From NCBI RefSeq assembly GCF_014695725.1, contig NZ_JACJOU010000033.1, forward strand, positions 248,001-312,000: a stretch of 64,000 nucleotides of DNA, given 5' to 3'. Under the pieces are notes generated by a model. The model was not told the origin of the DNA and searched no databases. It worked only from the letters and a program-made list of their open reading frames with translations. Origin of the DNA: Microcoleus sp. FACHB-672 (lineage in GTDB: Bacteria > Cyanobacteriota > Cyanobacteriia > Cyanobacteriales > Oscillatoriaceae). The position numbers and the translations under genes were made by a program. Positions 30,258 through 42,375 of this stretch are shown piece by piece. Within the stretch, counting starts at the first letter, position 1; the number at the start of each line of letters is the position of its first letter.

Positions 30258-31405
30258 ATGATTTCAGGAAAGCTCGATATAATTTGGAATATTTCTCTAG
30301 TCTGCCCCTGGAATTGCCAGTTTTGTTGTACTGATGCTGCATATGTTAGACAAACTGGAACCTCAATTATAATAAGGGAATTTGGATTAGGTCAGCAAAG
30401 AAATTTAGATATTCACGATATTAATTATTCTGAGCCTGCATTAAGGAAACTTATAGAAATAGGAATAAAACCAAACGTTTTTGACATAGCTTTGCAAGAT
30501 CGTCAAAGTCGAGGTCTTGAGTTGACTTACGAGCAGAAAATCAAATTAATCAATAACATCTTACCTCTGTCTGCTGAAATTGATTTTTCAGGAGGAGATC
30601 CCTTGGCTTGCTACGAAAATTTTTTGGTTATGCAGGAAGCAAAAAAATATTTGGCAGAAAAAATATAGCCGTTACAGCTACAGGAGCAAGCATAAGCAGA
30701 TATTCCTTGTCAGATATAGCTTCAACAATTGGCACATTTGAGTTTACGTTTGACGAACCACCCAATACAAATCCTGTTAATAGACCCTTGGGTTATAACT
30801 CTGCTAATCTAAGCATGATCAAAAAGTTAAGTGGACTAAATTTAAAAACTAAAGCACAGATGCCATTACATTGCGGCAATTTAGAGATTTCACATATTCA
30901 CCTGCTTTATAATTCCTTGCATGAAGCTGAGGTTGATGAACTTTTACTAATGCGAGTATTTCCCGTTGGTAGGGGTATTCAAGAGTATAAGAATGATATT
31001 CAACGTGAGGATTATCTTAGAGCTATTGATCAGTTCAGAAAATTAGAAACCCGCTTGAATTATCCAAAAGTAAAAATTCAGTGTGCATTAAAACACCTCG
31101 AACAGGCTGAACACTCGAAGAATCCCTGTGATCTGATGCAGAATTCATTTGGGATAAATCCTCGCGGAACTCTTCTACTCAGTGCATGGGCGACTAATTC
31201 TAGAGGTGAGGCTTTAGATGATGCCTTCGTTTTAGGAAATATCAGTGAAACTCCTCTTGAGCTATTGATACAAAGCAAAAAGGCTAAAGAATACTCTGTA
31301 AAATTAGATCATAATTGGGGACACTGCAAAATTTTTTCCTTTTTGTTTTCTAATCCAAAATCTTCGGAAGCTTTATTTGAAAAACAAGATCCACTGTATA
31401 TTTAA
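30258..31405 (+). pseudogene. radical SAM enzyme with SPASM-like tail, single-base frameshift
   Basis: The first frame (30258-30668) has the iron-sulfur motif CPWNCQFC (CxxxCxxC) near residues 16-23 and FSGGDPLACYENF, the GGDP SAM-binding region. It stops at TAG 30666. The next frame continues the same protein without loss: shifting back one base at the A-run 30658-30663 gives AEKNIAVTATGASIS and runs to 31405. The rejoined protein is ~382 residues with Cys residues in NPCDLM and GHCKIF, suggesting a SPASM-like auxiliary cluster. The break may be a deletion, a sequencing error or programmed slippage on AAAAAA. The substrate is unknown. Confidence 0.7.
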
Positions 31406-32061: not shown

Positions 32062-32748
32062 TTACTTATGAGCAAATAACTTAGGTTGCTCCACCGGCTC
32101 TTCAGTTCCTAAATAAATTGTGCGCGTTCCTTTGGGAACATGAATCCAGCCTAAATCCTTAAGCCGATGCTTTAAATTCGAGATCGTTACGCCAAGTTCA
32201 TCAGCCATTGCGTACAAATCAGACCACCGCGTTAAATTTCGCCCTTCTCGTTTCTCTTCTAAAATGGAGCAGGGCATTAGCAAACAGGAGGCAAAATATT
32301 GCGCCTGCCACTCAATCGATTCAATTTTAGATTGATTGCTCGAACCCCGGCAGACAAAAGGCTCTACCGGCTCTACCGGCTCCAAATCTAACCCCAATTC
32401 TAACTGCTTCACCACCCCATCCACTTCATCATGATTAATGTGAAGCACCCAATGACCGATTTCATGAGCAATGGTGGATTCTTGAAACCCTTGGGGCAAA
32501 TTCAAAATGTCTTCATTAATCTCAATTTGCCGCAATGAGGGCAGAATCCGGGCTGCGATCGCCCCTTCCTCATCGGGGGGGATGCAGTCCCAAACCACCC
32601 CTAAATCCAGAAAATCAGCCACCAAACTCGCCTCAAAAGGCCATTTGGGAGTAAAATTCGGCGTCAAATCCATCCGCCTCAGCAAGTCATTCGCCCGACG
32701 CTCAATTTCTGCCTTGGAATAGAAGCGATACGGTTTGAATAGACTCAC
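32062..32748 (-). CDS. ImmA/IrrE-type metallopeptidase
   Basis: 228 residues with the zinc-peptidase motif HEIGH at 95-99 (STIAHEIGHWVLHINHDEVD) and a conserved downstream Gln/Ala helix (WQAQYFASCLLMP). Such proteins cleave or inactivate a partner XRE repressor, as ImmA does with ImmR and IrrE with DdrO. The gene starts 2 bases after the XRE gene stop on the same strand, the classical pairing. The C-terminal ~70 residues look like a small helix-turn-helix segment (YAMADELGVTISNLKHRL). Confidence 0.88.
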   Translation of the reverse strand: MSLFKPYRFYSKAEIERRANDLLRRMDLTPNFTPKWPFEASLVADFLDLGVVWDCIPPDEEGAIAARILPSLRQIEINEDILNLPQGFQESTIAHEIGHWVLHINHDEVDGVVKQLELGLDLEPVEPVEPFVCRGSSNQSKIESIEWQAQYFASCLLMPCSILEEKREGRNLTRWSDLYAMADELGVTISNLKHRLKDLGWIHVPKGTRTIYLGTEEPVEQPKLFAHK

Positions 32749-32750
32749 AA

Positions 32751-33101
32751 TTACTCGCCCCCGTTATCTGCCTGCGTCGCTGCCTGGAACACTTGTTGAG
32801 CAAAATCAGGATTTTCCCGCATCCGGCGGAACAGAACTGACATATCTTTGTAATTCTGCTTGAGAAAATCCTCGTCCCCTTGGGGAATCCGACCGGCCAG
32901 GAAAATTAACTCTTCCTCGTTTAAATCCAGATTCCGTGCCAAAGAGCGAATCACGTCTTCCTTCGGGGCATAATCACCCCGATCATTCTCCAGCTTGGAT
33001 AGGTATGTAAAATCCAGCGAGAGTAACTTAGCGAGCTGTCTCTGGCTGTATCCCTTCGCTTTACGCGCATTCAGGATCAACTGTCCAAACGTCTTGTTCA
33101 C
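32751..33101 (-). CDS. XRE-family transcriptional regulator
   Basis: 116 residues with an N-terminal helix-turn-helix at about 6-62 (ILNARKAKGYSQRQLAKLLSLDFTYLSKLE). It is the first gene of a two-gene unit with the ImmA-like peptidase. Three similar 17-bp operator-like sites lie 41-119 bases upstream of its start, suggesting autoregulation and peptidase-triggered derepression. Confidence 0.88.
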   Translation of the reverse strand: MNKTFGQLILNARKAKGYSQRQLAKLLSLDFTYLSKLENDRGDYAPKEDVIRSLARNLDLNEEELIFLAGRIPQGDEDFLKQNYKDMSVLFRRMRENPDFAQQVFQAATQADNGGE

Positions 33102-33141
33102 ATCTTCTCTTTTTCTTACTGCATCTGCATTCTACGCAAAT

Positions 33142-33220
33142 TTGAATAAAAAATCAACAGCGCCCTTGACGAAAAAATCAACTGTGCGTTAGGATAAGCG
33201 TAGTTGACGAGAAAATCAAC
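33142..33220. promoter_or_regulatory. three operator-like repeats upstream of the XRE gene
   Basis: Three 17-bp copies of TTGA-N9-TCAAC: 33142-33158 (TTGAATAAAAAATCAAC), 33166-33182 (TTGACGAAAAAATCAAC) and 33204-33220 (TTGACGAGAAAATCAAC). Each has TTGA/TCAA dyad ends. They lie between the divergent XRE gene and the plus-strand gene at 33427 and are good candidates for binding sites of the XRE protein. Confidence 0.7.
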
Positions 33221-33426: not shown

Positions 33427-33807
33427 ATGCTCAAAACTTGGACAGATACTCACTACAAACTGGCTGAGAGCGACTGGCTTTATATCGCCAAGCACGACCA
33501 ACAAAGTTCAGCTTCTCTCGTTTGTCCTGGCTATGCACGGGATGGACAAGGCTTCAGCATCCACTTCACCGTAGCCCACATTGAGCTGCTAGAGCAATTA
33601 ACTGAAGTGTTGCGCGACATCCAATCTCAGTCAGCAACCGCAACTGAACACAGCCAGCCCGCAGTTGAGATGTATGCAGAGCAACGGGTGCGTGCTGCAA
33701 CTGAACAAGCAATCGGCGTCGGTGCCGGCAGCGAATATGCAGCGCATCCAAAGCCGGTGTCAACCCATCAACCTCTGGTTTCTTACCCAGTCGGGCGCGA
33801 AAAGTAA
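33427..33807 (+). CDS. hypothetical protein, unrecognised
   Basis: 126 residues with GGGAG just upstream of the ATG. The first ~70 residues look folded (DWLYIAKHDQQSSASLVCPGY, FSIHFTVAHIELLEQLTEVL); the rest is low-complexity and Gln/Ala/Pro-rich. It is divergent from the XRE/ImmA pair across the operator-like repeats, so it may belong to their regulon. No family is recognised. Confidence 0.5.
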   Translation: MLKTWTDTHYKLAESDWLYIAKHDQQSSASLVCPGYARDGQGFSIHFTVAHIELLEQLTEVLRDIQSQSATATEHSQPAVEMYAEQRVRAATEQAIGVGAGSEYAAHPKPVSTHQPLVSYPVGREK

Positions 33808-33892: not shown

Positions 33893-34630
33893 ATGTCTGA
33901 ACATCCTAAACTTTCCGTCTTTGGTTGCAAACCGGCTGATGCAATTATTGTCCCAGAACTTCCCCTGTCAGTCCGTAATAATTGCCAGTCTGGGCGCTGG
34001 ACAATTGGCGATGAGGAGTATGGTTCTAAGCTGGCGATGACCATTTTAAAATTTAGCAAATTCTTCGGCAGCCTCGGTCAAACTCATCATACACTTTGGG
34101 GACAAATTTGGTTTGTTGCGGAAGCCGGCGATATGCCTCAAGGCGTCGTCATGTGTACCTATATTAAAGGCCGCTCATTGAGCGATTTCAATCGCAAAGT
34201 TACAGAAATTATGGCGCGGGGCATTGAGCCGGCAGAAGGCATTTTTGTGCCCGATTTCGTTAAGCACTCCGGTCAAAAGCCAGATGAAACCGGCATTTTA
34301 AAACCGATTAATTACTATTCCCTGAAATGGGAATGGTACGAGCGCGGCGCGAAATTCCCGAATGTTTCTGATCCGCTGCTCAAACAGCTAGATGCCACTT
34401 CAGATAAAGCATGGAGCCGGCTCGATCAAGTCGCAGTCGCCCTGGAAGATGAAAACAATCAAGCCCGCTTGCTAGATCTGGAAGGCACAAAACTCATGGC
34501 TTGTCTGGATCACTTACCGCCCCATGAAATTGTCCGCTTAATGGCAGCTCATGCCAATGGAAATGGTACTAGCGAAATGCTGCTGCCCCATAATAACGCC
34601 AGTGAAATGGAAGCAAGCATCGTTAACTAA
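33893..34630 (+). CDS. conserved-looking hypothetical protein, unrecognised
   Basis: 245 residues from ATG 33893, which has AGGA 10 bases upstream; the frame is open further up (ATG 33833), and that start is possible. It is an alpha/beta protein with segments FSKFFGSLGQTHHTLWGQIWFVAEAG (split in two) and KPINYYSLKWEWYERG. There is no signal peptide or membrane helix. It follows the 126-residue gene by ~85 bases and may be in the same transcript. I do not recognise a function. Confidence 0.6.
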   Translation: MSEHPKLSVFGCKPADAIIVPELPLSVRNNCQSGRWTIGDEEYGSKLAMTILKFSKFFGSLGQTHHTLWGQIWFVAEAGDMPQGVVMCTYIKGRSLSDFNRKVTEIMARGIEPAEGIFVPDFVKHSGQKPDETGILKPINYYSLKWEWYERGAKFPNVSDPLLKQLDATSDKAWSRLDQVAVALEDENNQARLLDLEGTKLMACLDHLPPHEIVRLMAAHANGNGTSEMLLPHNNASEMEASIVN

Positions 34631-34905: not shown

Positions 34906-35199
34906 ATGAGAACCAATCCCACAAACCGACTGAGTGAAATCGTCATCAACGCTCAACTGGAAATTGGTGACGCTTTAAGCCAAGACACGCTAGAGCATCT
35001 AGAGGATCTCAATGAAGATTTAGTCTATGTGTCTCAATCCATCGAGCAAGCACAAGCTCGTTTTGCAAAGGTACTCGCAGAAAATCGGCAGATGAAGGCA
35101 TTTCTGCTGCAAACGGTGAAAGACTGCTGGTGTGTCGAAGGCAACCGCTGCGCCCGGTGTCAAAACACTCTGATCACTCTCAGCCATTTCGAGGTTTAG
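34906..35199 (+). CDS. small helical protein with Cys cluster, unrecognised
   Basis: 97 residues: a coiled-coil-like body (LEHLEDLNEDLVYVSQSIEQAQARF) and a C-terminal CWCVEGNRCARC motif whose four Cys residues could bind zinc or form disulfides. No family is recognised. Confidence 0.5.
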   Translation: MRTNPTNRLSEIVINAQLEIGDALSQDTLEHLEDLNEDLVYVSQSIEQAQARFAKVLAENRQMKAFLLQTVKDCWCVEGNRCARCQNTLITLSHFEV

Positions 35200-40677: not shown

Positions 40678-42375
40678 TTATTGAAGGCGCAAAACATCAA
40701 ATTTTAAGAGATAAACCAAGGTACGAGATAGATGTTTTGCTTGGGCGGGATTTTGATTGGCAAACCGGCTGAGGATATCTCCCACAGAAAGAGAACCCTC
40801 TTGTTTAATGGTAGCTAAAATTGAATCGACAGTGGCCGCCGGCGTTCTTCTCGGTGAACCAAAATTAGTGTTCCAGGTTTTTCGCAGTCCCTCTAGATGT
40901 GCCGGCGTGGCCATCGAACCCAAACTGAGAACCATTTTGCTGTCCAGATGGGCCGTTGAATAATGACTCAACCACCGGAAAGGATCGTCACACAGGGGAT
41001 AAGGTGGAGCACCGGCAGGCGTGGGAAAAGACACCGGCTTTTGAGCGCGAATTTCAGCGAGTTCTTGCCATAACTGCTCATACGCAGGGATGATAACTTT
41101 CCAATCGTAAACCTCCCTCGCCCTAGTTTTACCATTTTCTCCCATGCGTTGCCTCAGCTCGCTATCCTCAATTAAAGCAATCAACGAGCGAGCGCAAGCC
41201 TCAATATCAACAGCCGTTACCATCGACGCATGACCGATGTAAGAACTGTAATTCAAATTGTCATTAAGATAACTGGATGCGAAATCAATGCCATCTGCCG
41301 ATGCCGGCATAATTGTGGGAATTCTAAACCCATCAATTTCATGACGCACCGATTCTTGATAACCGTCCCAATCGGAAACAATCACCGGCAATCCTTGAGA
41401 CATTGCCTCAATTGGCGTCAAACCAAATGTTTCTTGAATATTATCGGCTAGAGATATAAAAATATCAGCAACAGACCAGATTCCTGAACGAATTGCCGGC
41501 TCACGTCCGTCTAGAAAAATTGCATTGACGGAAGGACAAAATCGTTGAGGACTGTTTTTGCCGTCAGCCTCTTCCCTCGCATCTTCAAACCAGCCGGCCT
41601 GGATTAGATGCACTTTCGCGCCAGTTGCTTGAACAGCGCGTTCCAAAGCCAAATACATCGGCACTGGATGGGCTTTTGCATAAAAAATTAAGCGCCCCAC
41701 AAACAGAACCACAATATCATCTGGAGCGATGCCAAGTTCTTGACGCATCCGGCTGCGAATCTCTTGCGCCTCACTGCCTTGGGGAAATGCCTCACAATCA
41801 ACACCAAGGGGAATAATTGGCAGTTGAATCTCAGCCTGAGGCTTGCTGCCGGTGCGTTGACCTAAATACTCAGCCCATGTTTCTAAAAGACGTTCAACCG
41901 CCGTTTTAACCGCGACAGACGTGCAAATTAAAGCGTCCCAAGGCTGCACCGGCGCTATCAGTAAATCCCCAATTGCTTTCGTTGCCGACCTGCTAACGAT
42001 GGTGTGAGTCACCCCACAAACGCTATAAGCACGCTCATCTGTAAATCGCCGCATCCAAACCAAGTCAGAAATGCTCGGATCGGGTTTGTAGATACCACCG
42101 GCTTCAGCAAGGCTTGTAGGATTGTCAGCCTGTAGCCACCGGACAGGACGGCGGCGTTTTGCCCAAGGTTCTATTCGTTGGCAAAAATCGCTGAAATCTT
42201 GCCGTTGCCCTGTGTAACAGTAGAGACGCTCTGCTGTTCCATACTTGACTAAACCTTTAAGAAAACCTTCACCCGCCGCTTGGCGACCGAGCAGTTGTTT
42301 ACCACTCGTATCGAAACCATCCTTGATATAAAAAACAGCCGAACTTGTACTCATCCTCAGATGACTCCCGTTCAC
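40678..42375 (-). CDS. GT4-type glycosyltransferase
   Basis: 565 residues (an alternative ATG seven codons in, at 42354, is equally plausible). The C-terminal half has the GT-B signature VLFVGRLIFYAKAHPVPMYLALE, IFISLADNIQETFGLTPIEAMSQGLPVIVSDWDGYQESV, with the EX7E-type Glu region. An extra ~120 residues after the catalytic part (from QELAEIRAQ) are unassigned. It probably makes a surface or cell-wall polysaccharide; the acceptor is unknown. Confidence 0.85.
   Translation of the reverse strand: MNGSHLRMSTSSAVFYIKDGFDTSGKQLLGRQAAGEGFLKGLVKYGTAERLYCYTGQRQDFSDFCQRIEPWAKRRRPVRWLQADNPTSLAEAGGIYKPDPSISDLVWMRRFTDERAYSVCGVTHTIVSRSATKAIGDLLIAPVQPWDALICTSVAVKTAVERLLETWAEYLGQRTGSKPQAEIQLPIIPLGVDCEAFPQGSEAQEIRSRMRQELGIAPDDIVVLFVGRLIFYAKAHPVPMYLALERAVQATGAKVHLIQAGWFEDAREEADGKNSPQRFCPSVNAIFLDGREPAIRSGIWSVADIFISLADNIQETFGLTPIEAMSQGLPVIVSDWDGYQESVRHEIDGFRIPTIMPASADGIDFASSYLNDNLNYSSYIGHASMVTAVDIEACARSLIALIEDSELRQRMGENGKTRAREVYDWKVIIPAYEQLWQELAEIRAQKPVSFPTPAGAPPYPLCDDPFRWLSHYSTAHLDSKMVLSLGSMATPAHLEGLRKTWNTNFGSPRRTPAATVDSILATIKQEGSLSVGDILSRFANQNPAQAKHLSRTLVYLLKFDVLRLQ

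Follow-up and report, generated by a model that had tools for sequence, protein, structure and literature searches.

Results

A regulator-protease gene pair lies divergent from the arh genes

The window analysed in this work (64,000 nucleotides of Microcoleus sp. FACHB-672) contained, on its minus strand, a gene for an XRE-family regulator of 116 aa, the ArhR orthologue (32751-33101; Pfam HTH_3, E 1.1e-10, with a structure model and fold search), and next to it a gene for an ImmA/IrrE-type metallopeptidase of family M78 with 228 aa (32062-32748; Pfam Peptidase_M78, E 4.2e-10). All 10 orthologues that were aligned kept the HEIGH motif of the peptidase (HExxH, residues 95-99) and Glu146, which from the family pattern would be the third ligand; a GAF domain was not found in this 228-aa protein. 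The model of the XRE protein was confident mainly over residues 1-70, and its structural matches to DdrO spanned residues 3-70, i.e. the HTH domain only. The N-terminal domain of CapH (Z 11.6) and the DNA-binding domain of ImmR (Z 11.5) were among the best matches of the fold search; many unrelated XRE proteins scored similarly, DdrO, CapH and ImmR among them, and the fold was therefore no guide between these three.

On the plus strand, three genes were recognised by homology as orthologues of arhA (33427-33807, 126 aa), arhB (33893-34630, 245 aa) and arhC (34906-35199, 97 aa). Their products matched nothing in Pfam above the cut-off, NCBIfam or PHROGs, and the predicted structure of ArhB had a mean pLDDT of 41. 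In Limnospira/Arthrospira PCC 8005 the order is given as arhR-arhA-arhB-arhC-arhD-arhE, with the XRE gene divergent from arhA and followed from there by arhB onwards, and these genes were highlighted because gamma irradiation induces them (PMC8400943, PMC4398503). According to PMC8400943, arhA-E were induced 8- to 30-fold and are very likely controlled by ArhR; PMC4398503 gives 3- to 22-fold where significant, and 2.5- to 2.8-fold for the XRE gene itself. Control of the arh genes by ArhR is thus already proposed in print; in the open-licence literature no description was found of operators, of a protease partner or of a wider ArhR regulon, which are the predicted additions made here.

The full XRE-arhA-E order was seen in Arthrospira sp. 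PCC 9108 (locus L015), which ran ImmA, XRE, an insertion, the operators, the counterparts of arhA, arhB and arhC of the window, and then genes for coiled-coil proteins of 328 and 363 aa, and it was through gene order in this locus, rather than by sequence, that the arh genes were matched to the PCC 8005 locus tags. The window held XRE, ImmA and arhA-C; arhD was unlinked and, differently from PCC 8005, was found elsewhere in the genome with two operators of its own. The insertion in L015 (2303-3435), IS200/605-like and TnpB-like by our own reading of its frames, parts the XRE gene from the operators, so that autoregulation may be lost there. The coiled-coil proteins ArhD (L006, 421-1437) and ArhE (L015, 6208-7299) both matched phrog_29668, a phage protein family of unknown function.

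Three dyad sites overlap two putative divergent promoters

Three near-identical dyads were located between the XRE gene and the divergent gene at 33427, and were predicted to be operators: site 1 (33142-33158, plus strand, TTGAATAAAAAATCAAC), site 2 (33166-33182, plus strand, TTGACGAAAAAATCAAC) and site 3 (33204-33220, plus strand, TTGACGAGAAAATCAAC). The dyad is TTGA-N8-TCAA, 16 bp long, with a C following in all three sites (17 bp in total), and in site 3 it extends to GTTGA-N8-TCAAC. The first-pass annotation had described three 17-bp dyads of the form TTGA-N9-TCAAC; the sites and their coordinates were borne out, but the spacer was miscounted, the true value being N8, and a pattern search for TTGA-N9-TCAAC in the 64-kb window returned 0 matches. 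Genome-wide, the same type of search found one N9 dyad, at C16:43286.

The window contained 6 copies of TTGA-N8-TCAA in its 64 kb, more than the 2.06 that shuffled sequence would give by chance. None of 2000 Markov-simulated windows had three starts within 62 nt, and none of 200,000 simulations that kept the local composition had three or more sites within 330 nt. Across the whole genome the bare dyad was only mildly enriched and not rare (275 places, 230 for the reversed pattern), and the signal therefore rests on context and on the flanking promoter. A further perfect dyad, at 40955, was discounted as a candidate fourth operator, since it lies inside a coding sequence (glycosyltransferase-like, by our own reading of its sequence) and looks like chance.

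The minus strand of site 1 supplies the -35 box of a putative leftward promoter for the XRE/ImmA pair (33129-33157, minus strand, TTGATT-17-TAGAAT; place G000:C33:281129-281157), and site 2 holds the -35 box of a putative rightward promoter for arhA-C (33166-33195, plus strand, TTGACG-18-TAGGAT). Site 3 starts about 8 bases past the rightward -10 box, over the expected start point. The sites therefore likely overlap the -35 boxes and the start point, as repressor operators do, and the layout is that of a repressor shutting two divergent promoters, these being read from sequence alone. The genes at 33427 and 33893, which had been suggested as the targets, correspond to the radiation-induced arhA and arhB, with the likely rightward promoter embedded in site 2.

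The sites are conserved together with the regulator-protease pair

A scan of genome contigs for arhB gave 17 loci, of which the closest belonged to a MAG of Microcoleus vaginatus; an arhC homologue lay downstream in 14 of the 17, and XRE and ImmA lay divergently upstream in 15. Every one of these 15 pair-bearing loci had two to four N8 sites, at spacings of mostly 24 and 37-38, and arhA-C stood beside the pair in 14. Neither of the two arhB loci lacking XRE/ImmA (L020 and L024) had a site in place; L020 has a dyad about 2.6 kb off. In a footprint alignment, the half-site columns were identical in 24 of 24 cases, against a mean majority share of 67% in the other intergenic columns, figures that describe 16 loci picked for having three sites and do not constitute a test.

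At least one site was found within 350 nt upstream at 29 of 30 XRE loci, the commonest distance to the start being about 50-64 nt. One close XRE homologue (L151) had no site at all.

Spacer length follows the regulator clade

Spacers were compared at 89 XRE loci, within 200 nt upstream of the gene. Where the XRE protein was at least 60% identical to that of the window, N8 sites were present at 57 of 61 loci and N9 sites at none (0/61); below 60% identity, N9 sites were present at 21 of 28 loci and an N8 site at one (1/28). Spacers of 5, 6, 7, 10, 11 and 12 together accounted for 4 sites, against 144 and 31 for N8 and N9. The proposal that the dyads are operators of this XRE protein gains from these numbers, given the N8 sites at close-homologue loci and their absence from the arhB loci without the pair, and direct binding may be expected.

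In a tree of the XRE proteins (88 rows, one row with an internal stop being omitted; 75 after duplicate removal), all N9-only rows fell in one branch (support 100/99), which contained no N8-only row. The recognition helix D[FY]TYLSKLE was common to both clades. The segment from GRI to LFRRM measured 17 residues in 48/48 measurable N8 rows and 20-21 in 17/17 measurable N9 rows; it was not measurable in 8 of 56 N8 and 3 of 20 N9 rows.

Some loci carried nuclease genes. On plasmid pCENA543b of Nostoc sp. CENA543 (L270, 3643-7969), a sister-clade XRE/ImmA pair is divergent from genes for a PD-(D/E)XK nuclease and a Piwi-domain protein, with two N9 dyads, GTTGAC-N7-GTCAAC, in the intergenic region; this locus possibly represents protease-repressor control of a prokaryotic Argonaute system. 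An N8 operator-promoter also precedes a PD-(D/E)XK nuclease and Piwi-domain operon in G030 (L275, 752-3768), beside decayed XRE remnants. In G132 the nuclease gene with an N8 operator likewise adjoins XRE remnants, and in G198 it adjoins an XRE gene (also L179 and L181).

The predicted operator recurs in promoters of unlinked genes

In the genome of the window, the arhD homologue on the same contig had two operators 36 apart, with a -35 box TTGACG and a -10 box TATGAT, and a KTSC-domain gene had an operator-promoter TTGACT-17-TATAAT upstream; arhA-C, arhD and KTSC appear to be the only clear targets in this genome. A gene of this genome for a D12-class DNA adenine methyltransferase also had an operator-promoter-like site, some 90 bases upstream (L040, G000:C4:140095-140123).

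The objection that the motif might be common everywhere applied to some degree to the bare dyad, but not to the operator combined with a -10 box, which was found at 76 places, spread over 57 of the 195 genomes scanned from the order, the reversed pattern giving 8. Of the 119 XRE-positive genomes, 52 showed this combination, compared with 5 of the 76 XRE-negative ones (Fisher p 6e-9, with relatedness left out of account); among the 52 are G030 and G132, where only XRE remnants occur. Downstream genes were examined at 60 of these places; of the 16 left, 15 adjoin an XRE gene by their coordinates and one is the KTSC site described above. The 60 places preceded genes for arhD (10), a VWA protein (7), a second VWA type (5), KTSC (5), recA (4), an unknown protein of 362-370 aa (4), a PD-(D/E)XK nuclease (3), arhA/B (1), an ATP-dependent DNA ligase (1) and other singletons (10), or nothing suitable (10), leaving 20 of the 60 without an informative downstream gene. 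In four genomes, all from a single genus (L214, 687-1772; L212, L213 and L215), the gene for the 362-370 aa protein immediately follows a strong operator-promoter; the only copy scanned against Pfam, that of L214, gave no match.

In a looser promoter search, two Okeania genomes showed sites in the interval that separates a VWA gene from dprA. Planktothrix-like genomes had sites ahead of recA, and Laspinema and relatives had them close to DUF1848 and DUF5131 genes. Places L107-L110 and L119-L122 from the same search had no convincing target and were not retained as regulon members.

A perfect N8 site preceded the arhD homologue at 11 of 21 loci in XRE-positive genomes, the site of L248 having an untypical centre, and at 0 of 9 in XRE-negative genomes. 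Some of the 10 XRE-positive loci without a site probably lie within an arhA-E operon. By comparison of the genomes, dispersed genes of a putative damage response thus share a palindromic operator in their promoters, the repair genes among them being those of relatives.

LexA and recA in genomes with arh loci

No match to TIGR00498 (LexA) was obtained in any of 14 genomes with arh loci (G000-G013, that of the window included), with a search that was positive in 9 of 14 control genomes. Among 10 other tested genomes of the order, 5 gave matches, 4 of them over the cut-off. For Arthrospira, PMC4398503 likewise reports that LexA is absent and that recA is not induced. In the 14 genomes, recA had an operator in the three that are Planktothrix-like; no operator site was found at recA of the window genome or of the Arthrospira genome. 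How many repair genes the regulon includes therefore depends on the lineage, with few of them in the genome studied here.

Discussion

Comparison with known regulator-protease systems

The DdrO/IrrE (PprI) system of Deinococcus also consists of an XRE repressor and an M78 metallopeptidase, and governs a radiation-induced regulon that can include recA, with no LexA control. The window peptidase differs from IrrE in being shorter and apparently GAF-less, and in having its gene adjacent to that of the regulator, which in turn is structurally similar to DdrO over the HTH domain only. The RDRM operator of Deinococcus presumably differs from the TTGA-N8-TCAA sites. By analogy, the pair would work like DdrO/IrrE, sharing its defining features as far as these can be judged from genomes; repressor cleavage is only predicted and the fold match is limited to the HTH domain, so the pair is not called a proven DdrO/IrrE member.

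ImmR/ImmA of ICEBs1, an XRE repressor with an ImmA peptidase, controls a mobile element, and the DNA-binding domain of ImmR matches the window XRE model; among the annotated genes surrounding the window pair no integrative element was evident. CapH/CapP of CBASS is likewise an XRE and protease pair (PMC10904395); its target is a linked defence operon, whereas that of the window pair would be a dispersed set of arh and repair genes. In Anabaena PCC 7120, an XRE gene, nsrX, is followed by that of an IrrE-domain protease, Alr1977, and NsrX is reported to bind its own promoter and to be a secondary nitrogen regulator (PMC12584617), which, on a comparison by description and not by sequence, counts against a damage reading of the pair studied here.

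A putative LexA-independent damage response

We consider it probable that in filamentous cyanobacteria the pair controls a LexA-independent, DdrO/IrrE-like damage response, in which the XRE protein (ArhR) represses from N8 sites and the ImmA protease inactivates ArhR. ArhR would be a dimeric repressor binding TTGA-N8-TCAA; placed on the site over its own -35 box, the site over the -35 box of arhA-C and the site over the arhA start, it would keep both directions silent in unstressed cells, and it would also repress unlinked operator genes (arhD and KTSC here; recA, VWA-protein genes and others in relatives). The positions of the sites suggest repression rather than activation. Upon DNA damage, the presumed signal, the adjacent metallopeptidase would inactivate ArhR, either cleaving it or preventing it from dimerizing, and so switch on the regulon. 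The idea of a stress-released switch, already raised in the first-pass annotation, is consistent with the conserved HEIGH motif of the protease and the radiation induction of the arh genes, and the pair may be regarded as a candidate for it. Single-stranded DNA is the first candidate signal because PprI of Deinococcus and CapP are both reported to be activated by it (PMC10904395).

Another reading is that ArhR binds the sites, but in response to metals, redox or nitrogen, radiation acting indirectly via oxidative stress. For IrrE of Deinococcus, activation by way of redox and zinc is reported as well (PMC7907104), and the binding of NsrX is described as metal-responsive and tied to nitrogen control (PMC12584617); the targets in relatives, however, include recA, dprA, a DNA ligase and the PD-(D/E)XK nuclease, and PMC4550399 describes no differential induction of the arh proteins upon nitrogen deprivation or the light/dark transition. 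We regard this signal assignment as rather unlikely.

It is improbable that the pair is a type II toxin-antitoxin system (XRE antitoxin and COG2856 metalloprotease toxin) with purely autoregulatory sites and the divergent genes as passengers. COG2856-Xre pairs have been treated as toxin-antitoxin candidates (PMC2701414, PMC10538038), the order of XRE gene and then protease gene fits, and the N9 sister clade looks mainly local; yet many genomes have N8 operators ahead of genes unlinked to the pair, here arhD and KTSC, and arhA-C go with the pair at 14 of the 15 arhB loci that have it. Least probable of all is that the sites belong to another regulator (a second XRE or a global factor) with the XRE/ImmA pair merely one of its targets, as the dyad in promoters without an adjacent XRE gene and the five XRE-negative genomes with a pattern match might suggest, since the spacer changes with the clade of the adjacent XRE protein, genomes lacking XRE are largely devoid of the operator-promoter, and the arhD site is absent from all nine loci of XRE-negative genomes.

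With a putative operator and a candidate sensor protease at hand, the control of the arh genes, the strongest radiation-response genes of Arthrospira, becomes directly testable. Arthrospira withstands gamma doses in the kilogray range with no LexA and no induction of recA (PMC4398503). The operator predicts the response genes of each lineage, with recA among them in Planktothrix-like genomes and not in Arthrospira, and the lack of predicted recA control in the latter agrees with recA not being induced there. DdrO/IrrE-like regulation would then extend to a major bacterial group.

A broader proposition, about which we are slightly more doubtful than convinced, is that ArhR/ImmA is the master LexA-independent damage switch over much of the order, and that a longer linker moved the dimer from N8 to N9 and insulated the sister clade, one chassis thereby serving both DNA repair and defence. 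The helix D[FY]TYLSKLE and the half-sites TTGA/TCAA would have stayed fixed while the linker before the C-terminal domain became 3-4 residues longer, and the sister clade would run local operons, including the nuclease-Piwi (prokaryotic Argonaute) operon of the Nostoc plasmid. The N8/N9 split may be viewed as a natural experiment on a change of operator spacing within a repressor family.

Elsewhere in the window, two overlapping open frames at 30258-31405 gave weak radical SAM and SPASM matches, and are perhaps one gene split by a frameshift.
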